37,577 bases of DNA from positions 1 through 37,577 of the forward strand of contig NZ_SSBC01000024.1 in assembly GCF_006475605.1 (NCBI RefSeq), given 5' to 3'. Positions 23,144 to 37,133 of the stretch are shown here, in pieces. The first letter of the stretch is position 1, and each line of letters begins with the position of its first letter. Source of the stretch: Asticcacaulis tiandongensis. GTDB taxonomy: Bacteria; Pseudomonadota; Alphaproteobacteria; Caulobacterales; Caulobacteraceae. Under the pieces are notes generated by a model. It saw only the letters and a list, made by a program, of their open reading frames with translations, ran no database searches and was not told the origin of the DNA. The position numbers and the translations under genes were made by a program.

Positions 23144-25123
23144 TCAGAAGCGGACCCGAAGCCCGGCATTGGCGGTAAAGCCCTCGGTCGGCTCCCAGGC
23201 ATCGACGGTCCAGCGGCCGTCTGCGGCGCGGCGCGGCCGCACCAGCGGATCGTGCTTGGTCTGGCGGACATTGAGCAGGTTCTCCAGGTTCAGGAACAGG
23301 CTGACCTTACCGAGCTTGACCTCACCCATGGCCCCCAGTTCCCAGTAGGGCTTGCCTTCCGCGCGATACGGATTGTCTTCGAGAGTTTGGCGGCCGGTAT
23401 AGTAGGCCTCGAAGCCGAGACGGCCCTTGCCTTCTTCTTCCCACATGGCGACCAGGCCGCCCGTATGCTTAGGCGTATCCGGCATATCTCTGCGCAGGCC
23501 GGTAGCTGGATCAGTCTCAGTCGCATCGACGATGACGTAGCTGCCAGTCAGCGAGAAGGCCTCGTGGCGATAGCGCAGGCGCAGTTCCGAACCGCGCGTG
23601 CGGGTGACACCGATCGCGTTGATCAGCCGCACGCTGGTGTCGCTGGTCTCCTGAAGTTGGACGGCATTGTCGATGTCCGAACCGAAGAGCGTCATATTCG
23701 CTTCCAGCGGTCCTGCCGTGTAGGTCAGATCAACAGACGCCGTCTGCGCTTCCTCGGCCTTCAGGCGCCCGAGCGGTGACAGGCGCGCCAGACCGGCCGC
23801 CTCAATCTCCTCCACAAACGGCGTCGGCGCATAATAACCCCGCCCGACCGAAGCCCGCACCGTCCAGTTGCCAGGACGGTAGAGCATCGAGACGCGTGGG
23901 CTGACTTGCGAACCAAATTCGCTATGATCATCCAGCCGCGCGCTGCCGGCCAGCGTCAGATCGCCGAACTTCTGTTCCACCTGACCGAACACCCCCGGCA
24001 CGGTGTAGTCGTAATTGAAGCCGCTATAGCGCTTGGAACGATAGCGATCGCCTTGCCAGGCCAGACCCGCGACCCATGACGTGCTGCCTTTTTCCCCGGT
24101 AAGGGAGGTCTCGACAAACGTCGTATTGTGATTGTCGCGGTCCGTCGCCTCACCAAAGCGATGATCGTGGCGTTGACTGAGCGTCGAGGCGCGAACATGC
24201 AGCGTGCCGATGCCTTCGACCGGTGTTTGCGCGGTCAGGCCCGCGTCCATCCGACGGCTATCTTGGGTCTCGCGGAAAGAGGTGCCGTCCAGCACAGTGC
24301 GACCGGAGACGGTCCCGCCATCGCGCTGTTCGGTCATAGCGCCCAGTGTCAGCAAGGCTTTGGCACCATTGTCTCCATACCAGAACAGGCGCGGTCGCAA
24401 GGTCCAGCGCTCATACCCCGCCATATCGATCCAGCCATCGCCGTCGATATCGTTCTGATCCTGCCGGTGATAGCCGCCCGTGATCGAATAGCTCAGGCGT
24501 TCGCTGATTGGGGCGGAGCTATAGGCCGTCAGGTCCTGACCGCCTCGGCTGGTCACATTGAACAGAAGCTCGGATTCAAGTTCAGGGCTTGGGCGACGCG
24601 ATACCAGATTGATAACACCCGCCAGCGCAGACCCGCCGTAGAGCGCCGAGGCCGAACCCTTGATGACTTCGACCTGTCCCAGATCGGTGGGCGGGGTCTG
24701 CAACAGGCCCAGGGACTGGCCGCCGTAGAGCGGCAGTCCGTCGGTCAACAGAAGCGTGTAGCGCCCCTTCATGCCCTGCATCCGGATATTGGATGCCCCC
24801 AGTGACGGCGACGTCACCTGCACCCGGATGCCCGGCGTTTCGCTGACCAGCATCGCGATGTTGCCGGGCATCATAGCGATCTTTTCTTCGATCTCTTCGC
24901 GGTTTATCACCTCCACGCGGATCGGCTCATCCTGAAGCTTACGTCCGGCGCGGGTCGCCTGGACGATGACTTCCGTCACGTCGTCCTCGTCGTGGTCCTC
25001 ATGTTCTTCGCGGTTCTGGGCGGACACAGAGGACGCTGCTGACAGCGAGAGCGCCGCGAGCGCGGCAAAAGCCGTGCTTTGGGCGAGAAATTGTTTGAAA
25101 GTACGCACGATCGACCTCGGCAA
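23144..25123 (-). CDS. TonB-dependent outer-membrane receptor, intact copy
   Basis: A 659-residue receptor and active transporter. The signal peptide runs to about residue 36 (ASSVSA). The mature N-terminus is acidic with three His (EEHEDHDEDD) and runs into a TonB-box-like VTEVIVQA. The plug domain (about 50-175) includes VSETPGIRVQV, IRMQGMKGRYTLLLTDGLPLYG, and VEVIKGSASALYGGSALAGVINLVSR. The rest is a 22-strand barrel ending in a C-terminal Phe (LRVRF), required for outer-membrane insertion. The form and length resemble the BtuB/FepA-like group. The His/Asp-rich start suggests metal or metal-chelate uptake, but the substrate is unknown. It is a paralogue of the gene cut by the Tn3 element at 3247. 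Confidence 0.92.
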   Translation of the reverse strand: MPRSIVRTFKQFLAQSTAFAALAALSLSAASSVSAQNREEHEDHDEDDVTEVIVQATRAGRKLQDEPIRVEVINREEIEEKIAMMPGNIAMLVSETPGIRVQVTSPSLGASNIRMQGMKGRYTLLLTDGLPLYGGQSLGLLQTPPTDLGQVEVIKGSASALYGGSALAGVINLVSRRPSPELESELLFNVTSRGGQDLTAYSSAPISERLSYSITGGYHRQDQNDIDGDGWIDMAGYERWTLRPRLFWYGDNGAKALLTLGAMTEQRDGGTVSGRTVLDGTSFRETQDSRRMDAGLTAQTPVEGIGTLHVRASTLSQRHDHRFGEATDRDNHNTTFVETSLTGEKGSTSWVAGLAWQGDRYRSKRYSGFNYDYTVPGVFGQVEQKFGDLTLAGSARLDDHSEFGSQVSPRVSMLYRPGNWTVRASVGRGYYAPTPFVEEIEAAGLARLSPLGRLKAEEAQTASVDLTYTAGPLEANMTLFGSDIDNAVQLQETSDTSVRLINAIGVTRTRGSELRLRYRHEAFSLTGSYVIVDATETDPATGLRRDMPDTPKHTGGLVAMWEEEGKGRLGFEAYYTGRQTLEDNPYRAEGKPYWELGAMGEVKLGKVSLFLNLENLLNVRQTKHDPLVRPRRAADGRWTVDAWEPTEGFTANAGLRVRF

Positions 25124-27079: not shown

Positions 27080-27847
27080 TTATAAGCAAATGACATCCGG
27101 CAGACCGGCAACCGTATCAATCACCTTATCTGCGCCTGCACGTAATAAGGCTTCACGGGCATCCTGCACCCTCGCGGCAAGTTCTGATGCGCTCAGGGCC
27201 TGAAACTGAGGCAGATCAAGTCCCACCCCATTGCCGCTGGCGGCAATACCGACGGTAAAACATCCTGCCGCCCTGCCCGCTTCGATGCCTGCGATGGAGT
27301 CGTCCACCACCACCACCTCCGCTGCCGGATAAACCCCCAGTTCCACCATGGCCTTCCAGATTATCAACGGTGCCGGACGCCCCTTTAGGGTTTCTCCGGC
27401 ACAGACGATGATTTCCGGTTCATAGCCTTGCGCCGCGGCCGCCTTCTGAATGGGAACCATCATCGGACGTGTGTAACCGGTGGTCGAACCTATGCGAATA
27501 CCTTTGGCGCGTAATTGATCAAAGGTCGAGCGCGCGCCGGGAATAAGCGTAGCACGGGCTGCACCCGCTTCGCGCATCAGGCTGTCAAGACTGGCAAAAA
27601 TATGATCTGCGTCAGCAGCGGCAGGGGCCTGTCCATACTGCTCGATCCACGCCTGACGCACCCGCTCTATGGCCAGTATACTAAGAACATGATCCCGCTT
27701 GGCCTGTCCCATCGGCAGACGAGCTTCCGGTTCGGTAATAGGTACATTCATCTGTGTGAAAGCATGCTGCATGGCAACAACGGGTGCCAGCGAGCCGAAA
27801 TCGACCATAGTGCCAGCCCAGTCAAAAATGACGGCTTTAGGGGTCAT
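27080..27847 (-). CDS. phnX: Phosphonoacetaldehyde hydrolase (phosphonatase)
   Basis: A 255-residue HAD-superfamily enzyme that cleaves the C-P bond of phosphonoacetaldehyde to acetaldehyde and phosphate in the cytoplasm. The nucleophile Asp9 lies in VIFDWAGTMVDFGS (the family usually has DWAGTTVD; here Met replaces one Thr). The Schiff-base Lys50 lies in MGQAKRDHV, equivalent to Lys53 of the Bacillus enzyme. GSTTGYTRPMM (motif II), KGRPAPLIIW and VVVDDSIAGIEAG (motif III/IV) are complete. It lies 19 bases after the FAD oxidase on the same strand, so the two form an operon in which the oxidase supplies phosphonoacetaldehyde. No PhnW transaminase is present. Confidence 0.92.
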   Translation of the reverse strand: MTPKAVIFDWAGTMVDFGSLAPVVAMQHAFTQMNVPITEPEARLPMGQAKRDHVLSILAIERVRQAWIEQYGQAPAAADADHIFASLDSLMREAGAARATLIPGARSTFDQLRAKGIRIGSTTGYTRPMMVPIQKAAAAQGYEPEIIVCAGETLKGRPAPLIIWKAMVELGVYPAAEVVVVDDSIAGIEAGRAAGCFTVGIAASGNGVGLDLPQFQALSASELAARVQDAREALLRAGADKVIDTVAGLPDVICL

Positions 27848-27866
27848 GTCAGGCGTTCCTTATCAG

Positions 27867-28982
27867 TTAGAAAAGTGATTTCAGCGTATCTTCGGCAATG
27901 GCAAAAGCGGTAGAAGCGCCTGTGCCACTGGTTACAGACACAAGGCGTACGCGCGGGTGCGGTGCCTCACAGAACATGTCATTGTCTGCGCTCGGATAGG
28001 TGCCAAGCCAGCGCTCAATAACCGAAGGTGCAGGAAATCCACATACACGTGTAAACTCCTCCAGGATCAGAGCCTCAATGCGCTGATTATAGAAAGGGTC
28101 AGGCGTACGGGCATAGTGATGGCTGTCGCCCACCACCAGCGCCCCATCCGCGTCTTGCACCACAATCAGATGCACGCCGTGCCGAAGTGCATTGGGGCAC
28201 TCGCGTTCTAACCTGTGCTTCAAAGCGGCGCTTTCGGGCCGTTCGGCATAGCCGCGATAGCGTATCAGCGACAGATCCGACATAAGCGCACAGGGTAAGC
28301 GAAAACCGGGCGAGGCCAGTCGCATCATATGCAGCTTGCTTAAGGTAACACCATGTCGGTCATAGACATCAGGATAAAGCGTATTGAGATCATCACCGGG
28401 GCAAACCACTATGCTTTCAGCACAGATGTCACCGCGTGCGGTCGATATATATGGCGGGTCAATAGCCGTAACGGCGGTCTCAAAATGAAAGGTCACGCCC
28501 TGTGATTTCAGCCAGTCAATGAGACGGGAAATGGCAGTGGGTGAATGGACGCGTAGCTCATGCGGACTATAGAGTGCGCCACATAACGCCTCACCTGTTA
28601 GTCCTGCATAAGTATCGCGCACTTCATTGGGGGTAAGAATCCGGCAATCCACACCCATTGGATGCACCCTGAATGCTTCCAGCACCGTCATGGCCTCAGG
28701 GCGCTGCGCCGTAACCAGAAGACCGCGATGCACGATATCTATACCGGCTCGCGGCGCCAGTTCAGCCCATATATCCCGACTGCGGCGCGCCCTTTCCCAG
28801 GTTTGATCGGCACTTTGCCCCGTAACAGTAATGAAACCGAAATTGCGTATCGAGGCGCCCACAGGCGCTGCGTGACGATCACAGACCGCGACCTTAAGTC
28901 CACGCTGCTGCGCCCCTAATGCATGGGCCAGCCCGACAATACCTGAGCCGATTATCAGAAGGTCGTAATGAAGTAAGGCCAA
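27867..28982 (-). CDS. HpnW/PbfC-type FAD-dependent aminophosphonate oxidoreductase
   Basis: A 371-residue DAO-fold flavoprotein. It starts with the dinucleotide-binding motif LLIIGSGIVGLAHALGAQQRG, then ASIRNFGFITVTGQS, typical of the family often called HpnW, found next to phosphonatase genes. The C-terminal FAD contact is VSVTSGTGASTAFAIAE. Family members oxidatively deaminate aminophosphonates to phosphonoacetaldehyde; the characterised one, PbfC, is reported to prefer N-methylated 2-aminoethylphosphonate. Being first in an operon with phosphonatase fits. Whether this protein takes the free or the N-methyl amine cannot be read from sequence. The start ATG at 28982 opens the divergent promoter region. 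Confidence 0.88.
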   Translation of the reverse strand: MALLHYDLLIIGSGIVGLAHALGAQQRGLKVAVCDRHAAPVGASIRNFGFITVTGQSADQTWERARRSRDIWAELAPRAGIDIVHRGLLVTAQRPEAMTVLEAFRVHPMGVDCRILTPNEVRDTYAGLTGEALCGALYSPHELRVHSPTAISRLIDWLKSQGVTFHFETAVTAIDPPYISTARGDICAESIVVCPGDDLNTLYPDVYDRHGVTLSKLHMMRLASPGFRLPCALMSDLSLIRYRGYAERPESAALKHRLERECPNALRHGVHLIVVQDADGALVVGDSHHYARTPDPFYNQRIEALILEEFTRVCGFPAPSVIERWLGTYPSADNDMFCEAPHPRVRLVSVTSGTGASTAFAIAEDTLKSLF

Positions 28983-29088
28983 GGCGCTGGCTCCGGTTTA
29001 ATTTTCGCCAACCTTCATAGCAATGTCGCATAACAAATTTATAACTATAATTAAAACTAATTTTGATTATTCTCAGGATAGCATTCAA
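28983..29088. promoter_or_regulatory. Divergent promoter of the FAD-oxidase operon and the phosphatase gene
   Basis: 106 bases, strongly AT-rich in the middle. ATAACTATAATTA at 29041-29053 recurs on the minus strand upstream of the transporter gene (ATAACTATTAATTAT, 35725-35711). Such shared sites suit the LysR regulator encoded in this locus. Promoter boxes cannot be assigned with confidence. Confidence 0.45.
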
Positions 29089-30870
29089 ATGTTCCACACC
29101 CGTGCAACCCTCTGCCTCACCTTGCTGATGGCCACAAGCGCCCTGCCGGTCGCTGCTGAACAATGGCGACTGGAAACCGGTTATGACTTGCCACGCCGCG
29201 CCGCGCTTTTGCCAATTAAGGCATATAGCGGGCCAGTGATCGCACAGCCCCTATCCTCTGCGCCGCTGTTTTTCGGTGCCACCGCCAGCCATTCGCAAAC
29301 ACTTAAGGCCGACGCCGTTACCGGTGATTTTACTGCCGAGCTATGGCTGGTTGATCATGTCAATCAACCGGTTGGTGTGCTGATGAGCGTAGGCGATGCG
29401 CGTTTTGGGTATTATGACCGCACAGCAGCCTTTGGCGGCACTGACAAACTCGAGACCTATAAGATGCGCGACAAAGCCTTCAAGGGGCGCTGGCACCATC
29501 TGGTGCTGGTGCGCGAAGGCAAAACCCTGCGTCTGTATAACAATGGCACCCTGATAGGGGAAGCAACGGCAAACAGCCAGGGCGGTCAGGTGCGTCTGGA
29601 CAGCTATCTGTCGAATGAAGCCTTTATGCAGCCTGCCAATCTGGTGCATATGGCAGGTATCGAGCCACGCGCTTTAAACGCTGCTGAAATCAGCGAACGG
29701 TTTACCTCCCATGCCCAGCGCGTTGAGGACGGCATCCTGTATGCTGACCGCTTCCATTTCACCCAACCGCCCTATCTAAACATGCCACAGACCGATTCGA
29801 TTGAACTGTCGTTTGAGTTCGACCGCGTCGCTGTGGCTGAAGTCGCCTACGGGGAAACAGAAGATACGCTCAAGGTCGTTCCCTTAAGCGCAAATGCGCG
29901 CCTCAATGGATTAAAGCTAGAGGGTCTCAAGCCGGATACCCCCTATTTTTACCGCGTGACGGCAAAGGATGCGCAAGGCGGAACGATTGATTCCGGCCTG
30001 CTGTCTTTCCGAACCGCCCCTCCGGCCGGTCAGCCCTTCGTGATGGTTATTTCCGGCGATACCGAAGCGCGTCCACATATTAACAATCGTATGGCCGAGC
30101 TGATGTGGGAAGAACGCCCCGCACTTCTGGCTATTGTCGGCGACCTGACGGACGGCGGTTCAAAAACCAATCGCTTTGAATGGACGCACGAATATTTCAC
30201 GGGCATGGGCCATTTCTTTGGCCGTGTGCCGGTCATCGCCACACCGGGTAATGGCGAGAGCGAACTGCACTGGTATAATCACTATCACCGCCAGCCTCAG
30301 CCGGAGAGCTATTTCTCAATGGTTTATGGCGACGTGGAAATCTTCGTGCTCGATGCCAATCTGGATGAACGCGAAAAAGAAAGTGCAGGCTTCCGTGAAC
30401 GGCAAAAAGCCTGGTTTGACGGGGCACTGAAGGCTTCAAAAAGCCGGTGGAAAATCGTCATGCACCATCAGGATGTACGGACATCCGACGATGATGATTA
30501 CGGCAATAGTTTCCGCACCCGTTCACGTCATGGCGATTCGGATGTTCAGGCGGATTTCGTGCCTCTGTATGAAAAGCACAATGTCGATCTTGTGTTTTTT
30601 GGCCACCTTCATGCTTATGAACGTAGCTGGCCGGTACGCGGTGAAAAGGCTGACCCGAAGACGGGCATTACCTATGTGCAGGTCGGCGGTCTGGGCGGCA
30701 ATCTGGAAGATTTCGCACCGAACAAACCGTGGTTCTCCACTAAGACCGTGCGCGCGCACCACTATGTCAGCTTACATGTCAGCCCTGAAAAAATTGAAGC
30801 CCGTATGGTCGATGCCGACGGCCATTTACGTGATGTATTTAGTGTGCTGCCACGTAACGATAAGCGCTAA
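29089..30870 (+). CDS. Exported LamG / purple-acid-phosphatase-like metallophosphoesterase
   Basis: A 593-residue protein. A signal peptide (about 1-23, SALPVAA) precedes a concanavalin/LamG domain (about 60-215, with GRWHHLVLVREGKTLRLYNNGTL in parts). Next come a PAP-type fibronectin-like domain (about 240-330, AEVAYGE to LKPDTPYFYRV) and a calcineurin-like phosphoesterase domain (about 340-560). Metal motifs are VISGDTEARPH, AIVGDLTDGG, PGNGESE, VMHHQD and FFGHLHAYERSW. GNGE replaces the usual GNHE, so the catalytic His is missing there while the metal-binding Asn stays. The ATG at 29089 is chosen for the signal peptide; an earlier ATG at 29023 would bury it. It likely removes phosphate or phosphonate from an extracellular substrate before uptake. 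Confidence 0.87.
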   Translation: MFHTRATLCLTLLMATSALPVAAEQWRLETGYDLPRRAALLPIKAYSGPVIAQPLSSAPLFFGATASHSQTLKADAVTGDFTAELWLVDHVNQPVGVLMSVGDARFGYYDRTAAFGGTDKLETYKMRDKAFKGRWHHLVLVREGKTLRLYNNGTLIGEATANSQGGQVRLDSYLSNEAFMQPANLVHMAGIEPRALNAAEISERFTSHAQRVEDGILYADRFHFTQPPYLNMPQTDSIELSFEFDRVAVAEVAYGETEDTLKVVPLSANARLNGLKLEGLKPDTPYFYRVTAKDAQGGTIDSGLLSFRTAPPAGQPFVMVISGDTEARPHINNRMAELMWEERPALLAIVGDLTDGGSKTNRFEWTHEYFTGMGHFFGRVPVIATPGNGESELHWYNHYHRQPQPESYFSMVYGDVEIFVLDANLDEREKESAGFRERQKAWFDGALKASKSRWKIVMHHQDVRTSDDDDYGNSFRTRSRHGDSDVQADFVPLYEKHNVDLVFFGHLHAYERSWPVRGEKADPKTGITYVQVGGLGGNLEDFAPNKPWFSTKTVRAHHYVSLHVSPEKIEARMVDADGHLRDVFSVLPRNDKR

Positions 30871-30886
30871 AGCGTCAACAAACCGT

Positions 30887-30934
30887 CATACGATAAATGT
30901 ATGAATTAACCTGCCTCATTTGTATAAATTATAC
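30887..30934. promoter_or_regulatory. Two inverted repeats upstream of the large TonB receptor
   Basis: CATAC-N7-GTATG (30887-30903) and the near-palindrome GTATAAATTATAC (30922-30934) lie in the AT-rich part of the 265-base gap between the phosphatase and receptor genes. The second has the T-N11-A outline of LysR-type sites. They could place the receptor under the local regulator. The rest of the gap to 31135 contains a short GTGTGT/ACACAC hairpin near 31093 and no gene. Confidence 0.45.
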
Positions 30935-31135
30935 TGATCGCGGCCAACGGGGGTAAACTTAAAAGGCAGCGGTCAGTTCGGTGACGTAACGCCCAATTAA
31001 AATTGTCCGGTTTGCACGTCCAACAACATGACGAACCGGATGCACCGTTTTTTCATTCCGTCCGAACACAGCGTCGGGCGGTTGCGGGTCGGTGTGTGCC
31101 TGACACACGCCGGTTCAGCCTTCATGGAGATATCA

Positions 31136-33976
31136 ATGTCTAACCTCTCATTCCCGCTTTCAGGACGCAAGATCGCCGCCCTGACCAGCGTCAGTCTTAT
31201 GGCTCTGGGTCTGGGCCTGCCATTTGCCGCGATAGCCAGTGACGACGAAACAACCGAAGTGATCGTCACCGGTCAACGCCTTTCGAATGCCAACTCGATT
31301 GAGCAACAAAAGAAGGCTACAGGCGTAGTAAACGTCATTTCGGCGGATGATCTGGGTAAGTTGCCCGACGCCAATGTTGCCGACGCTTTGGCGCGTATCG
31401 CCGGCGTCAATGTGGTGGTCAATCAGGAAACCGGCGAAGGCGAATATGTGTCGGTGCGCGGGCTGGCCAGCACCTATAATGCCTATTCGATCAATGGGGT
31501 GCGTGTCGCCCTGACCGATTCGAATTCGCGCAAGATGTCGATGACGGTGCTGCCGCCCAATGGTCTGAAGGCGATCTCGGTCTATAAGACCCTGACGCCG
31601 GATCTGGATGGCGACGCCATCGGTGGCTCAGTCAATTTCACCACACCAACAGCCTTTGATTTCAAAAAGCCAACGGTACGCGTGTTTGGCACCTACGGCA
31701 TGAATGACCGTGCCGACAAGCAGGGTGAAGAGTCCTCCAACAGTCAGCTTCAAATCGATGCCGCCCGCCGTTTTGGTGATGGCCGCTTTGGTCTGTTTGG
31801 CTCTTTTAACTATGGCAAAAGCCACTACACCAACGAAGAGTCGGAAAATAACGGTGAGTGGGAACCCTATATCTGGCGCAAGGATTCCGAAGAAACAATT
31901 GATGACCGTACCCTGTATCTGCCCGGCGTTAATCTCGATTACCGCCGTGGTGAGCAGGAACGTTTCGGTGGCAATTTCTCGGCCGATTATCGCGGCAATC
32001 AGCACGATTTTTATCTGCGTGGTCAGTATTCAAAGCTGAACCGTACAGCGACGAATGACTATACCGACTTCCGCAGCCGCACGACTCCGCGTCTGACGCA
32101 GGTTAATCTTGAAGACACCGGACTGCTGCAACCCGATCAGATGATCACAGGCTATGATCCGGTTAAAGGCAATGTCTATGGGTACGGGCTTGATCAGATT
32201 GTTGACCGTGATGGCGACGATATGATCACCGACGCCGACCGCAGATCGGGTAATTCCTACTGGTCACTCTTTGGGCGTTCCGGCGTCTGGGACCCGCAGG
32301 CCATGCAGTTCGCCCGTACGCACGAATCCCAGGATCAGGAATCGTCTCTGGCGACCCTCAATATCGGTGGCCAAAGCCGCTATGACCGCCTGACCCTCGA
32401 TTACGACCTGAGCTATTCCTACGGTGAAAAGGGTACGCCGCTGTCCTATGGCATCAATTATGACTGCGATAAGTGCGACACCGATCCGATGTTTACCTCG
32501 ACCGGTATTCTGTGGTCGTCAGCCGATCCGCGCTTCCCGCTGCCGCAGCTTCCGGCCTATGCCGCCGATGTCGCCAAACGTGATGACCTGCTGCCGTTTT
32601 CAGGCGCATGGATGGATCGCAGCGAACAGTCTGACGCCCGTACAGCTTTGAAACTGGATGCGAAATATGAAATGGGCGGTTTTATCGATCATGTGAAGGG
32701 TGGTTTCAAATATCTGAAATCCGAGCGTGAATACGATTCAACGCCGATCTGGGAATATGATGAAGACGACATGGCTGACCTGCCGATGGTCAACCAGACT
32801 CTGGCGCAGTCCGGTCTGGTCGAGCGTCAGATCGACGGCTTCTTCAAGGATCGCTACTATTTTGGTTCAATCATGAACCGTGACAGGGTCGTTTCGCTGA
32901 TCAACGACGCCCGCGGCACCTATCCGGTGGTGCAAAGCTTTGAAGACCTGAACCGGGACGACAAGCGAGGTAACGAAACCATCTACGCTGCTTACGGTCT
33001 GGTTAATATGAAGTCCGGTAACTGGGAAGTCATCGCCGGTGCCCGCGTTGAGCATACCAAGGTTGAAAACGTAAGCTGGATCAACGAAGATGAAAGCAAT
33101 GGCGGCGTGTCGGGCTTTGGCAAGACCGAGGCCGATTACACCAACTTCCTGCCCAGCGTGACCGCTGTTTACCGTGCCGGTGACAATCTGGTTTATCGCG
33201 GGGCGATCTGGACGAGCTTCTCGCGTCCTGAATATGCCAATATTTCACGCGGAGAAAGCGTCAGCCGTGATCCGGTGACTGATGAAATCGTGGCCATCAG
33301 CCGGGGCAATCCTGACCTGAAGCCTGCCGAAGCGGTCAATTTCGACCTGTCGGCGGAATATTATCCGGACCGTTCCAGCATGGTGTCGATTGGTTTCTTC
33401 CATAAGGAAATCAAGAACTTCATCTTCACCAATGGCCGTTCGGTCAATGCCGACACTAAGGAAGGCACGATCACCATCACCCAGCCGCAAAATGGTGAAG
33501 ACGCCACCATCACCGGTGTGGAACTGACGCTTATCAAGTCGTTTGAAGGTCTTCAGGCCCCGTTCGACGGGTTCGGTGTCGAAGCCAATGTCACCACGCA
33601 GAACTCGACAGCGGAAACCGGTCTGGCCTATCGTCGCGGGCGTCCGATCTCGTTCCTGCAAGCGCCCGATCTGATCTATAACGCCTCGCTGACCTATCAG
33701 AAGTACGGCTTTGAAGCCAAGCTCAGCTATCAGTATCAAGGCGCCTATATCGAAGATACGCGCGACAACGCTATCGACAAATGGGTCCAGCCAAACAAGT
33801 CGCTTGACCTGCATACACGCTACGTCATTCGTCCGGGCCTGTCGGTTGATTTCGACATTCAGAACATCCTTGATGGTCACCGCTATTACACCACCAAGGG
33901 TAAGAACCCGACCTATCAGAAAGACTATATGGAGCCGGGTCGTAACTTCATCCTGCGCTTTGCCTACAGCTACTAA
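31136..33976 (+). CDS. TonB-dependent receptor of the Xanthomonas/Caulobacter type
   Basis: A 946-residue outer-membrane receptor. Signal peptide to about residue 34 (LPFAAIAS), TonB box-like TTEVIVTGQRL, and plug domain with ISADDLGKLPDANVADALARIAG, EYVSVRGLASTYNAYSING and LDGDAIGGSVNF. This is the TonB-Xanth-Caul type, large receptors that usually import complex carbon sources. The barrel ends in a C-terminal aromatic (FAYSY). Loops are acidic with Cys pairs (DCDKCD near residue 440). The start ATG at 31136 has GGAG six bases upstream; an earlier ATG at 31028 lacks one and precedes a spurious extension. In this locus it should bring the phosphonate substrate through the outer membrane. Confidence 0.93.
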   Translation: MSNLSFPLSGRKIAALTSVSLMALGLGLPFAAIASDDETTEVIVTGQRLSNANSIEQQKKATGVVNVISADDLGKLPDANVADALARIAGVNVVVNQETGEGEYVSVRGLASTYNAYSINGVRVALTDSNSRKMSMTVLPPNGLKAISVYKTLTPDLDGDAIGGSVNFTTPTAFDFKKPTVRVFGTYGMNDRADKQGEESSNSQLQIDAARRFGDGRFGLFGSFNYGKSHYTNEESENNGEWEPYIWRKDSEETIDDRTLYLPGVNLDYRRGEQERFGGNFSADYRGNQHDFYLRGQYSKLNRTATNDYTDFRSRTTPRLTQVNLEDTGLLQPDQMITGYDPVKGNVYGYGLDQIVDRDGDDMITDADRRSGNSYWSLFGRSGVWDPQAMQFARTHESQDQESSLATLNIGGQSRYDRLTLDYDLSYSYGEKGTPLSYGINYDCDKCDTDPMFTSTGILWSSADPRFPLPQLPAYAADVAKRDDLLPFSGAWMDRSEQSDARTALKLDAKYEMGGFIDHVKGGFKYLKSEREYDSTPIWEYDEDDMADLPMVNQTLAQSGLVERQIDGFFKDRYYFGSIMNRDRVVSLINDARGTYPVVQSFEDLNRDDKRGNETIYAAYGLVNMKSGNWEVIAGARVEHTKVENVSWINEDESNGGVSGFGKTEADYTNFLPSVTAVYRAGDNLVYRGAIWTSFSRPEYANISRGESVSRDPVTDEIVAISRGNPDLKPAEAVNFDLSAEYYPDRSSMVSIGFFHKEIKNFIFTNGRSVNADTKEGTITITQPQNGEDATITGVELTLIKSFEGLQAPFDGFGVEANVTTQNSTAETGLAYRRGRPISFLQAPDLIYNASLTYQKYGFEAKLSYQYQGAYIEDTRDNAIDKWVQPNKSLDLHTRYVIRPGLSVDFDIQNILDGHRYYTTKGKNPTYQKDYMEPGRNFILRFAYSY

Positions 33977-33995
33977 TTTACAAACATCCTGAACG

Positions 33996-34028
33996 ACCTT
34001 CCGGTGTTTCGGCACCGGAAGGTTTTTT
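33996..34028 (+). terminator. Rho-independent terminator of the receptor gene
   Basis: ACCTTCCGGTG (33996-34006) and CACCGGAAGGT (34013-34023) form an 11-bp perfect stem around TTTCGG, followed by a run of six T. It lies about 20 bases after the stop codon and separates the receptor from the LysR gene. Confidence 0.95.
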
Positions 34029-34128
34029 ATGTAAACTATTTGGCTATGTGGCGACGGTCATGATTTTCAGACATATTTATCTGTTATAGCTTGTTCAAAG
34101 AATCTGTTTGTTATTATGAGAACCGCCC

Positions 34129-35058
34129 ATGACTACGCCGCCCATAACGCCAGATGAAAGTTCAGACCGCCCCAACCGCCGCCGTGAAAGTTCCGGCCTG
34201 TCGATAGGGGCCTTAAGGGCTTTCGTCAGTGTGGTTGATCTGGGGTCATTTTCGCGGGCTGCGGCCGAACTGGGGGTGTCGCAACCCAATATCTCCAATC
34301 AGATCATCACCCTTGAGCAGGCCTGCGGCGTCAGGCTTTTGCACCGCAGGTCACAGAACCAGCTTCTGACGGATGCCGGCAAAGAACTTTATACCCGCGC
34401 ACGTCTGGTCATTAGCCGGATGACTGATTTTGAAAATACAGCAAATCTGTTCAACAGCTTAAAGCGCGGGCGCATCGTCGTCGGCTACTCCACTCCGCCC
34501 GTAGCCATGAAACTGATCGGTCAGTTCATGCGCACCTATCCGGAAATCGAGTTGATGGCCCGACACGGCAATACCGAAGGGCTACGAAACGATCTTCAGG
34601 AATGCCGCATAGACACGGCGATTGTCACCCTTATGGAGCCGGAGCCGGCATTTGCCTGTCAGATGATCGCGCCACAGGGGCTTAATCTGCTGGTGCCATC
34701 CGATCATCCCTTCGCCTCACGTAGTGACATAGCGGTCAACGAGTTGTCCGGTCTGGCTTTGGTGGCACGTGAAGACGGATCGGCGACGCGGACCCTGAGC
34801 GAAGCCGCGCTAACGCTCGCCCATACCCCTTTTGAGCCGGTGCTGACCGTCGAAAGCCGTGAAGCCGTTAAAGAAGCCGTCGCGCACGGAATCGGTTTTG
34901 GCTTTGTGCTTGATGGGGAAATTGGCGATGACACACGGCTTAAGGCACTGGCCATACGTGGCCTGTCGCGCAAGGTCGGGGTTTACGTCGTCAGTTTGCG
35001 CGAAAGTCTGGAGATTCCTGCGGTTTCAGCCTTTGTCGGACTTGCGGAAGGACTCTGA
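34129..35058 (+). CDS. LysR-type regulator of the phosphonate locus
   Basis: A 309-residue LysR-type protein with a winged helix-turn-helix near residues 25-85 (LRAFVSVVDLGSFSRAAAELGVSQPNISNQI) and a PBP2-like effector domain (GRIVVGYSTPPVAMKLIGQF onward, then NLLVPSDHPFA). The opening resembles the LysR group associated with 2-aminoethylphosphonate catabolism genes. A polar ~24-residue extension precedes the DNA-binding domain. It should sense the phosphonate or a product and act at AT-rich sites upstream of the oxidase, phosphatase, receptor and transporter. Effector is unknown. Confidence 0.88.
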   Translation: MTTPPITPDESSDRPNRRRESSGLSIGALRAFVSVVDLGSFSRAAAELGVSQPNISNQIITLEQACGVRLLHRRSQNQLLTDAGKELYTRARLVISRMTDFENTANLFNSLKRGRIVVGYSTPPVAMKLIGQFMRTYPEIELMARHGNTEGLRNDLQECRIDTAIVTLMEPEPAFACQMIAPQGLNLLVPSDHPFASRSDIAVNELSGLALVAREDGSATRTLSEAALTLAHTPFEPVLTVESREAVKEAVAHGIGFGFVLDGEIGDDTRLKALAIRGLSRKVGVYVVSLRESLEIPAVSAFVGLAEGL

Positions 35059-35102
35059 GATCAGTATAATATATATAAATCAAATCAACATTTAGATATA
35101 TT

Positions 35103-35678
35103 ATGATTATGACAAACCCAGCCTCCGCTGAATCCCTGAAACAGGAAATCCGTCGTCTGTATCTGGACAATGGCAGCCGCGCCTACGGACTTTACGATCT
35201 CAATCAGTTGCAGCACGCCCTGCAATCGGCGCAACATGCCGAAGCGCAGGGCTTTTCAGCAGGGCTGATCATGGCCTGTTTGCTGCATGATGTGGGTCAC
35301 ATGGTCCATCGTCTGGGCGAAGCGCCCGCAGAAGACGGCGTCGATGATCAGCACGAAGACCTGGGCGCGCAGTGGCTGGCCGAACATTTCCCCGCCGAAG
35401 TTAGCGAACCCGTAAGGCTTCACGTGGCTGCCAAGCGTTATCTTTGCGCCGTTGAAGACGGCTATGAGGCGTCTCTGTCAAGGGACTCTGCCTTGTCTCT
35501 GGCCCTTCAGGGCGGACGCATGAACGCAGCCGAACAAAAAGACTTTCTCAACACCCCCAGCGCAGATGAAGCTATCGCGCTGCGCCGCATTGACGACAGG
35601 GCCAAGGACCCGAAAGCGGTCACCCATTCGATAGAGGTGTTTCTGGATCGCTATCTGATAGATGCCCTGCAAGGATAG
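35103..35678 (+). CDS. PhnZ-like HD-domain diiron oxygenase with altered substrate pocket
   Basis: A 191-residue HD-domain protein of the family that includes PhnZ, a mixed-valent diiron oxygenase which splits (R)-1-hydroxy-2-aminoethylphosphonate into glycine and phosphate. All metal ligands align: His38, His62-Asp63, His66, His84, His107 and Asp164/165 (PhnZ His34, 58-59, 62, 80, 104, Asp161). The phosphonate-binding Lys (HVAAKRYL, Lys111) and Arg (RRIDD) are also kept. Tyr28 matches PhnZ Tyr24, but the amine-binding Glu27 is Tyr31 here (YGLYDLNQLQH). So C-P cleavage chemistry is probably kept with another amine group. No PhnY/TmpA hydroxylase is in the window to make its substrate. Two ATGs (35103 and 35109) are possible and neither has a clear ribosome site. 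Confidence 0.85.
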   Translation: MIMTNPASAESLKQEIRRLYLDNGSRAYGLYDLNQLQHALQSAQHAEAQGFSAGLIMACLLHDVGHMVHRLGEAPAEDGVDDQHEDLGAQWLAEHFPAEVSEPVRLHVAAKRYLCAVEDGYEASLSRDSALSLALQGGRMNAAEQKDFLNTPSADEAIALRRIDDRAKDPKAVTHSIEVFLDRYLIDALQG

Positions 35679-35710
35679 AGATTTATCCGGCGCATCGTCA
35701 TTTAATCGTT

Positions 35711-35725
35711 ATAATTAATAGTTAT
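35711..35725. promoter_or_regulatory. AT-rich motif shared with the divergent promoter at 29041
   Basis: On the minus strand this reads ATAACTATTAATTAT, one inserted base away from ATAACTATAATTA at 29041-29053. Both lie upstream of phosphonate-locus genes, so a common LysR operator is possible. In such AT-rich DNA a chance match cannot be excluded. Confidence 0.38.
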
Positions 35726-35750
35726 GAAATCGGTCAATAAATTCACTTAA

Positions 35751-35780
35751 CCCATAAGGCTCGCGGCCTATGGGAAGGAG
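35751..35780 (+). promoter_or_regulatory. Stem-loop directly before the transporter ribosome site
   Basis: CCCATA (35751-35756) pairs with TATGGG (35769-35774), with a further inner GGC/GCC stem after one bulged base. The next six bases are AAGGAG (35775-35780), the ribosome site for the TTG start at 35787. Hairpin and ribosome site touch, so folding could affect translation, or the hairpin ends upstream transcripts; there is no T-run. Confidence 0.5.
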
Positions 35781-35786
35781 CCGATT

Positions 35787-37133
35787 TTGACCACTTCTAT
35801 TACGCGGGCCTTGGCGCGTGCGGGCCATGTATGGGTGGGACTCTACGCCCTGAGCGCGGCTTTCATCACCTATTTTTGTATGTATGCGTTTCGCAAGCCC
35901 CTGACAGCCGCCACCTATGAAGGCGTAGAGGGTTGGGGATTTTTGCTCGATTTCAAGATCGCCATGGTGATCGCTCAGGTGCTCGGATATGCCGCATCAA
36001 AGCTGATTGGCGTCAAGGTCGTCACCGAAGCCTCAGAAACACATAGACCCTGGATGATACTCGGCTTTATCCTGACCGCCTGGGTGGGTCTGATCCTCTT
36101 TGCCGTCCTGCCCGGCAATTGGAAAATTGCCGCCATTTTCCTGAGTGGTTTGCCTCTGGGGATGATCTGGGGGCTCGTGTTTGCCTATCTCGAAGGCCGT
36201 CGTATGAGTGAGATTCTTGGCGCAGGCCTGTGCGCCAGCTTTATTGTCTCATCTGGCGCAGTAAAGGCTGTGGGGCGGGCACTGATTGTCGATTATGGTT
36301 TACCGGAATTATGGATGCCTGCCGCAACCGGCGCATTGTTTTTACCCCTGTTAGCCGTGTCGGTATGGCTGTTGGCGCAAACCCCGCCACCCGACGCCAA
36401 AGATGTCGCTGAACGGGTGAAACGTCAGCCCATGTTTAAGCCCGAGCGTGCGGCCTTTCTGGCGGTGACCGGGGTTGGGCTTTTGATGCTGGTCGTCGCC
36501 TATATTGTGCTTACCGCCTTACGCGACTTCCGCGATAATTTCGCCGTTGAGCTTTGGGGAGCACTGGGGTTCGGCGACACGCCTTCGATATTCGCTCTCT
36601 CTGAACTGCCGGTAGCCGGTGTGGTTCTTGTATTATTCGGCCTTACGGCACTAATCAAAAATAACCGTTCGGCGGTACTGACCTATCACTGGATGATTAT
36701 GGCCGGAGCCATCATTATTGCCGGTGTCACCTTTGCGTTTCAAGCTGGTTACATGGATCCGGTATGGTGGATGATCGCCGTAGGAGCGGGCGTTTATATG
36801 GGATACGTCCCCTATAATGCGGTATTGGCAGACCGGTTGACGGCGGCGTTACGGTTACCGGGAAATGCCGCATTTTTCATGTATGTGGCCGATGCGTCAG
36901 GCTATGGCGGCAGCGTTGCACTTATGCTCATTAAGAACTTTATGAGCCTGAATCTCGACTGGCTGAGTTTCTTTAATCTGGTTTGTTACGTCTCAGCGGC
37001 TGTTGTTTTGGTGACAACTTTTTCATCTTACCTATGGTTTCGTTTCAGGGTCTTCCGCACTCAGCCTGCACAAAATCTGGAAATGCACACCATAAGCACC
37101 ATCGCCGCTCCCCCTGTAAATCAGAATGGATAA
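35787..37133 (+). CDS. Polytopic transporter, MFS/DUF5690-like
   Basis: A 448-residue inner-membrane protein with about 12 hydrophobic segments. It opens with ITYFCMYAFRKPLTAATY, shared with DUF5690 proteins and similar to GlpT/UhpT-type carriers of organophosphates. LSGLPLGMIWGLVFAYLEGRR and YVADASGYGGSVALMLIKNF are family-like blocks. It starts at TTG (35787), well supported by AAGGAG six bases upstream. Last gene of the locus, it is the only inner-membrane carrier present and would move the phosphonate into the cytoplasm; no PhnCDE-type ABC transporter is present. The substrate is inferred from context only. Confidence 0.82.
   Translation: MTTSITRALARAGHVWVGLYALSAAFITYFCMYAFRKPLTAATYEGVEGWGFLLDFKIAMVIAQVLGYAASKLIGVKVVTEASETHRPWMILGFILTAWVGLILFAVLPGNWKIAAIFLSGLPLGMIWGLVFAYLEGRRMSEILGAGLCASFIVSSGAVKAVGRALIVDYGLPELWMPAATGALFLPLLAVSVWLLAQTPPPDAKDVAERVKRQPMFKPERAAFLAVTGVGLLMLVVAYIVLTALRDFRDNFAVELWGALGFGDTPSIFALSELPVAGVVLVLFGLTALIKNNRSAVLTYHWMIMAGAIIIAGVTFAFQAGYMDPVWWMIAVGAGVYMGYVPYNAVLADRLTAALRLPGNAAFFMYVADASGYGGSVALMLIKNFMSLNLDWLSFFNLVCYVSAAVVLVTTFSSYLWFRFRVFRTQPAQNLEMHTISTIAAPPVNQNG

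Follow-up and report, generated by a model that had tools for sequence, protein, structure and literature searches.

The Pus loci of Flavobacterium combine a TonB-type outer-membrane transporter with clustered exported phosphodi- and monoesterases (PMC8115612; here and below, statements taken from cited papers refer to the parts of these papers that were available). In Azospirillum, the enzyme PbfC prefers N-methyl-2-aminoethylphosphonate (N-methyl-AEP) about 400-fold over 2-aminoethylphosphonate (AEP), and the related enzyme PbfD1 was named as a member of the family TIGR03364 (PMC10590968). Here we describe a locus of Asticcacaulis tiandongensis in which a TonB receptor and an exported phosphoesterase likewise stand together, in this case with genes for cleavage of the C-P bond. 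The window, i.e. the whole stretch of DNA that was analysed, is the entire 37,577-bp contig NZ_SSBC01000024.1 (G000:C21) of a 3.2 Mb genome in 22 contigs. Seven open reading frames (ORFs) were confirmed in it, coding for the phosphonoacetaldehyde hydrolase PhnX, an HpnW-type flavoenzyme, a phosphoesterase with a LamG and a purple acid phosphatase (PAP) part (MPE), a TonB receptor, a LysR regulator, an HD protein (Phn-HD) and a DUF5690 protein. As named in the original prediction, which was made from the sequence alone, the seven genes are contiguous, and their families are supported by domain and hidden Markov model (HMM) matches (Table 1).

On balance, the locus probably serves to scavenge aminophosphonate esters through TonB-coupled uptake, phosphonolipid head groups being the likeliest of these. 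The exported phosphoesterase (MPE here, in sister loci mostly a phospholipase C (PLC) with a Tat-like signal) would free a small aminophosphonate, and the TonB receptor would move the substrate or the product across the outer membrane; the esterase could act before or after the receptor. DUF5690 would then bring the small phosphonate into the cytoplasm. Phosphate could be released by two routes: by HpnW followed by PhnX from N-methyl-AEP and perhaps AEP, and by Phn-HD from 1-hydroxylated AEP (HAEP) that arrives already hydroxylated. LysR would turn the set on. We infer the substrates, the direction of transport, the order of the steps and the regulation. What was observed directly is the presence of the genes, their joint conservation in relatives, and the way in which MPE and PLC replace each other between sister loci.

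Because the density of receptors in this genome is high (45 TonB barrels, so that by density approximately 24% of 20-kb stretches hold one), the neighbourhood in the window alone proves little, and the proof is carried by conservation in relatives. Among 81 genomes, all 11 relatives with a close receptor (at least 63% identity; one of the 11 was partial and one split) carry full-length HpnW, as opposed to 14 of the 70 without it (Fisher p 3.7e-7, kinship not corrected). HpnW and receptor are no more than 10 kb apart in 8 of the 11 relatives having both.

A receptor-first scan covered bacterial and archaeal species with one genome each, and nine aligned receptors and two peptide patterns served as query. 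Because only two patterns were used, the scan is biased towards close relatives and cannot be taken as complete. It yielded 39 loci, of which 37 had a receptor above a threshold set by us. L147 and L148, which are receptor fragments from the two ends of a single contig, were dropped before this count. Four incomplete loci were kept: L143 with a partial receptor frame, L110 and L128 with a truncated Phn-HD and PLC, respectively, and L133 at a contig end. Flanks of up to 10 kb were fetched and annotated with HMMs built from the first relatives, with thresholds again of our choice; 7 of the 37 loci seem to come from genomes also present in the relatives set. The loci belong to Asticcacaulis, Caulobacter, Brevundimonas, Phenylobacterium, Pseudaquidulcibacter, Sphingomonas, Novosphingobium, Sphingopyxis, Altererythrobacter, Croceibacterium, Niveispirillum and others (Caulobacterales, Sphingomonadales and other orders), metagenome-assembled genomes included.

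Phn-HD was found in the flanks of 35/37 receptor loci, in 24 of them less than 500 bp from the receptor, and DUF5690 in 29/37. Since HpnW and PhnX were present in only 22/37 and 20/37, respectively, Phn-HD is the steadier partner of the receptor. Either Phn-HD or PhnX occurred in 36/37 loci, the exception being L133, in which one flank is no longer than 278 bp. The linkage spans several families with changing gene order and, judged from these comparisons, the link of the receptor clade to phosphonate genes appears firm. Thus, co-occurrence of the receptor with phosphonate genes in related genomes, whose absence the original prediction had named in advance as its refutation, was borne out. The same expectation for the phosphatase holds for an exported phosphoesterase in general (PLC or MPE, 35/37) but not for the LamG/PAP type, a minority (5/37) that was therefore rejected as a constant part of the set. 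Co-occurrence of the set as a whole was seen in about half of the loci, HpnW, PhnX, Phn-HD, DUF5690 and an esterase being all together in 18/37.

The slot of the exported esterase is occupied by a phosphocholine-specific PLC in 31/37 receptor loci, one of which (L127) holds both PLC and MPE. All eight PLCs of the cassette that were tested exceeded the cut-off of TIGR03396, a family which we take to be of the PlcN/PlcH type. An RR motif, indicative of a Tat-like signal, was recognized by eye in 12 of 13 N-termini, two of the 13 representing the same gene. In the PLC tree (all trees were made with FastTree only) the 31 cassette PLCs, labelled by an HMM score above 900, group in one clade (support 0.78), to which 11 other PLCs do not belong. 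All but one of the 31 belong to receptor loci, the exception (L104) lying in an HpnW locus that has a different receptor. Among the 11 others, three (L118, L119 and L146) are additional copies within receptor loci. The enzyme is not common: a search of 200 genomes of the order (E 1e-60) detected it in only 24, and none of 8 other PLC loci that were fetched contained a phosphonate gene. On the receptor tree (38 leaves), MPE without PLC requires three changes: in the clade of the window, in Brevundimonas (L123-L125) and in Croceibacterium (L139). Such interchange between sister loci would be seen if MPE and PLC had the same function, and suggests a shared role. Taken together, an exported-esterase role in the sister loci is well supported by the comparison of genes. 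Because the esterase there is usually a phospholipase C, the phosphonolipid head group, one of several substrates proposed in the original prediction, gains weight as a candidate.

Inspected by eye, the MPE of the window probably starts at 29089 and begins with a Sec-type signal. It has a metallophosphoesterase domain (PF00149, 53.3 bits) and a predicted purple acid phosphatase fold. The predicted model (mean pLDDT 79) is nearest to lupin PPD1 (3zk4; best Foldseek match, E 1.3e-22), plant PAPs and phytase. Asp, Asn and His residues presumed to be the expected metal ligands are invariant across nine aligned proteins. GNH(D/E), which we take to be the purple acid phosphatase motif, was not found: GNG stands in 9/9 aligned proteins and Gly389 is invariant. 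For the LamG part, the matches to lectin-like folds were weak (TM not above 0.20 by query length), and these were not used. A PAP2-superfamily protein is encoded beside the PLC in 7/36 loci (L126, L127, L130, L135, L137, L138 and L145; one copy was family-tested), and in a G019 receptor locus a PhoD-like phosphatase lies between DUF5690 and PLC (L084:14685-15782).

By homology, HpnW would convert N-methyl-AEP to phosphonoacetaldehyde, the substrate for PhnX. The HpnW of the window is 25.7-25.9% identical to Acinetobacter baumannii chromosomal homologues, which are presumably PbfD1-like, and 46-66% identical to other TIGR03364-annotated alphaproteobacterial proteins. The genome contains neither PhnW (best score 40.6 bits against a cut-off of 400.8) nor PhnJ. 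No TauD-family protein that could serve as hydroxylase partner of Phn-HD was found in the genome, in a search that did not extend to PbfA or further HAEP enzymes. The sole PhyH protein was rejected as partner because by context it was taken as ectoine hydroxylase (it adjoins an EctB-like aminotransferase, by eye). A genome lacking PhnW, PhnJ and a TauD-type hydroxylase makes the locus suited to N-methyl-AEP and ready-hydroxylated AEP: if Phn-HD is a TmpB/PhnZ-like oxygenase, its substrate must arrive hydroxylated. Sphingophosphonolipids are reported to contain N-methyl-AEP, and the membranes of Bdellovibrio stolpii to contain HAEP (PMC10590968, PMC12366243). With this lipid occurrence and the PLC in the loci, lipid head groups would be the most economical substrate, and a phosphonolipid seems to us a good inference.

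Phn-HD is related in sequence to TmpB (6npa, 99 bits) and PhnZ (4mlm, 62 bits), and its HD-core residues H62, H84, H107 and K111 (numbered as in the protein encoded in the window) are identical in 123/123 aligned rows. The lid glutamate, which we take to correspond to E27 of PhnZ, is present in 30/37 cassette rows and 65/86 other rows. Tyrosine replaces it in 7/37 cassette proteins, including that of the window (position 31), so the substrate of the latter may differ from that of the lid-Glu enzymes. A Phn-HD match above the TIGR03276 cut-off was found in 41/387 genomes of the class. The Phn-HD tree, in which receptor linkage changed 6 times, was weakly supported and was not used. TauD-domain proteins, possible hydroxylase partners, were seen near HpnW in two relatives (L097:6360-9143 and L106:5883-7505).

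The predicted model of DUF5690 is a carrier of the major facilitator superfamily (MFS), nearest to G6PT/SLC37A4. As other MFS families are matched almost as well, the model gives no more than a hint of the substrate class. Single and profile searches against the sequences in the PDB gave no match to any solved chain, and a literature search under the name DUF5690 found no paper. A GntR or LysR regulator was encoded in 34/37 receptor loci (GntR in 27, LysR in 7), the alternation requiring 2 changes on the receptor tree. Control of the locus through a PHO box was rejected, as PHO-box-like sites were no more frequent than expected by chance (3 in the window, one of which falls within the LysR gene, against 2.98 expected).

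Table 1. Features of the phosphonate locus in the window
Feature	Position	Strand	Evidence
PhnX, phosphonoacetaldehyde hydrolase	27080..27847	-	TIGR01422 321.7 bits (cut-off 220)
HpnW-type FAD amine oxidoreductase	27867..28982	-	TIGR03364 412.3 bits (cut-off 285.1)
MPE, exported LamG + purple-acid-phosphatase-type phosphoesterase	29023..30870	+	Laminin_G_3 and Metallophos domains
TonB-dependent receptor (clade TBDTa)	31028..33976	+	plug and barrel; TIGR01782 585.5 bits (cut-off 310)
Terminator-like hairpin in receptor/LysR gap	33995..34024	+	13-pair stem; weak evidence
LysR regulator, phn_lysR-like	34129..35058	+	best model TIGR03339 218.7 bits (below cut-off 341.1)
Phn-HD, PhnZ/TmpB-type di-iron C-P oxygenase by homology	35103..35678	+	TIGR03276 198.4 bits (below cut-off 214.6)
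DUF5690 inner-membrane carrier, MFS fold	35787..37133	+	PF18943 483.9 bits (cut-off 25)

The match of PhnX to its model is full-length (model positions 2-251 of 251). The receptor ORF has 982 codons as listed, and translation from the in-frame ATG at 31136 gives the 946 residues of the original prediction; the protein contains a plug (PF07715, 66.5 bits) and a barrel domain (PF00593, 133.1 bits). PhnX and HpnW are transcribed leftward and the other five genes rightward. With this divergence and the hairpin between the receptor and LysR genes, the seven genes are not one operon. As a class, terminator-like sites were as frequent in the region as in shuffled sequences (12 found, 11.9 expected).

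Several observations weigh against the scavenging of phosphonolipid esters. Curated NCBIfam cut-offs are passed by PhnX, HpnW and the receptor and missed by Phn-HD and LysR. No TIGR03396 PLC was found in this genome or window at E 1e-60, and the MPE that fills the slot resembles PAPs, whose fold serves for phosphoesters of various kinds; its LamG part may be a sign that the substrate is a glycan and not a lipid. Clustering of unlabelled proteins revealed no lipase, ceramidase or SusD-like family recurring in at least 4 of 36 loci; the PAP2 protein was the sole family to reach this number. A PhnD-like binding protein is encoded elsewhere in the genome (TIGR01098 125.9 bits, cut-off 112.05; PhnD model 145.2, below 261.1), and the chance level of PHO-box-like sites points the same way. 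Neither HpnW nor PhnX was present in 15/37 receptor loci, and in 3 of the 11 relatives with both genes (G019, G023 and G029) HpnW lies elsewhere, unlinked to the receptor. Of 80 Phn-HD loci sampled from the wider class, just 3 had a receptor nearby; these controls came from a score-ordered list, not a random one, some were cut by contig ends, and many of the class members behind them may have few TonB receptors.

When the relatives were viewed from HpnW, a TonB receptor was found within 10 kb in 21/25 loci, compared with the approximately 24% expected by density in this genome. Eight of these receptors belong to the clade of the window (TBDTa), 7 to TBDTb, 2 to TBDTc and 4 to others, indicating that TonB coupling is a habit of these bacteria and not of TBDTa alone. 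Most of the 25 loci have no labelled PLC or MPE. TonB coupling of HpnW loci does not, then, require a substrate that needs trimming. These data speak for a reading in which the receptor imports free small aminophosphonates (AEP, N-methyl-AEP, HAEP) and the esterase is just co-regulated, taking phosphate from unrelated esters. Such import has a parallel in Caulobacter, whose TonB receptors also take up small substrates such as maltose (PMC7142613). Maltose and small aromatics are carried by TonB receptors of these groups (PMC7142613, PMC6874591), and the argument of the original prediction that the substrate must be too large or too decorated for porins fails for this reason. Nevertheless, import of free aminophosphonates is unlikely in our judgement, as in this particular clade an exported phosphoesterase accompanies the receptor in 35/37 loci, with PLC and MPE interchanging.

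TBDTb receptors are located near HpnW in L083, L086, L094-L096, L104 and L107, mostly together with DeoR, a sulfotransferase and Asp/Asn hydroxylase-like proteins. In L239 (12973-16140) a TonB receptor with a C-terminal OmpA domain adjoins an HpnW-PhnX-Phn-HD locus. The window itself encodes a second TonB receptor (23144-25123), 2.7 kb from HpnW, nearest to siderophore/B12 receptor models and below their cut-offs.

A general phospholipid or organophosphate esterase-receptor pair might also share a phosphorus island with phosphonate genes without having a common substrate with them. Pairs of this kind exist, and they too count against the scavenging of phosphonolipid esters: PLC, receptor and DeoR stand without phosphonate genes in L267, as do a receptor and a PAP-type MPE on another contig of the A. 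tiandongensis genome (G000:C15), with homologues in G013 and G024. Moreover, PhoB-regulated TonB receptors and PLC were reported for Caulobacter (PMC11208175). However, the commonest neighbour of the receptor is Phn-HD, the PLCs of receptor loci are a clade of their own, and no excess of PHO-box-like sites was seen, which makes a fortuitous island improbable. At G000:C15 the genes for a sigma factor, FecR, an STN-type TonB receptor and the PAP-type MPE are consecutive (L262:6462-12740; homologous sets in L263 and L264), and the set looks like a self-signalling organophosphate scavenging locus.

Another conceivable role of the receptor is the supply of iron to Phn-HD, which is its steadiest neighbour and, judged from the homology to PhnZ/TmpB, a di-iron enzyme. 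This appears very improbable, for among the NCBIfam models the general model TIGR01782 scores best and alone passes its cut-off, with no siderophore model doing so, and iron supply would leave PLC and MPE unexplained. Still less credible is a chance neighbourhood, for which the receptor density and the Tn3 and Trb genes of the same contig might be cited, and which for this receptor clade is refuted by linkage across several families despite changing gene order and by the association with HpnW in relatives.

Scavenging of aminophosphonate esters thus remains the reading we prefer. That the locus represents a dedicated alphaproteobacterial phosphonolipid locus, with a phosphonate-ester receptor clade, an interchangeable PLC/PAP-type esterase and a Phn-HD cleaving lipid-derived hydroxy-AEP without a hydroxylase partner, is a more tentative proposal, to which we give somewhat less than an even chance. 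Phosphonolipids of protists, invertebrates and some bacteria are a phosphorus store. A literature search, in which most papers were judged from listings, found no outer-membrane route for their use, and with the receptor clade, C-P enzyme and PLC there would be defined genes through which such a route could be studied. The DUF5690 carrier family would gain a testable role, and phosphonate loci of TonB-rich bacteria can differ in build from the ABC-importer type.

The locus seems to be part of a mobile or plasmid-like element. Between 1312 and 19741 the window contains a Tn3 transposase, Trb-type conjugation genes with a type IV secretion coupling protein, and HipA. The contig ends do not overlap and thus give no sign of a closed circle. 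In a plasmid collection no record covered 80% of the stretch 27080-34000. The best receptor kin found there (54% identity) is on a plasmid of Novosphingobium EMRT-2, in which annotated PLC, phosphohydrolase and TonB receptor are consecutive and a TIGR03364 enzyme and a DUF5690 protein are located approximately 36 kb away. Azospirillum PbfC was not in the collection searched.

Comparison with described systems shows partial likeness in each case. As with PbfC/PbfD and PhnX (PMC10590968), a TIGR03364-type flavoenzyme adjoins PhnX in a genome without PhnW, whereas the main text of that paper, as available, has no mention of TonB, phospholipase or the outer membrane. Phn-HD is sequence kin of the PhnZ/TmpB oxygenases and keeps the four counted His/Lys positions, but no hydroxylase partner was found and the lid residue is Tyr. 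The 2-AEP permease AepP, a GlpT-like protein (PMC8316502), is likewise an MFS carrier in a phosphonate locus; DUF5690, whose model is nearest to organophosphate antiporters such as G6PT, is likened to it by fold class and not by direct comparison. The phosphocholine-specific PLC (TIGR03396), absent here, fills the slot in most sister loci with copies that form a separate clade. The original prediction knew of no described system of exactly this make-up. This now needs qualification, as the Flavobacterium Pus loci have a related make-up and are the closest related idea in print; no other description of the combination was found in the search mentioned above. A SusD-like lipoprotein, a feature of the Pus loci, is not among the seven genes. 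The present locus further differs from them (as far as described in the available part of PMC8115612) by its occurrence in another phylum, by LysR/GntR regulators without PHO-box-like sites beyond chance, and by a single receptor clade that is tied to Phn-HD and accompanied by a PLC or a PAP-type esterase in one and the same slot.

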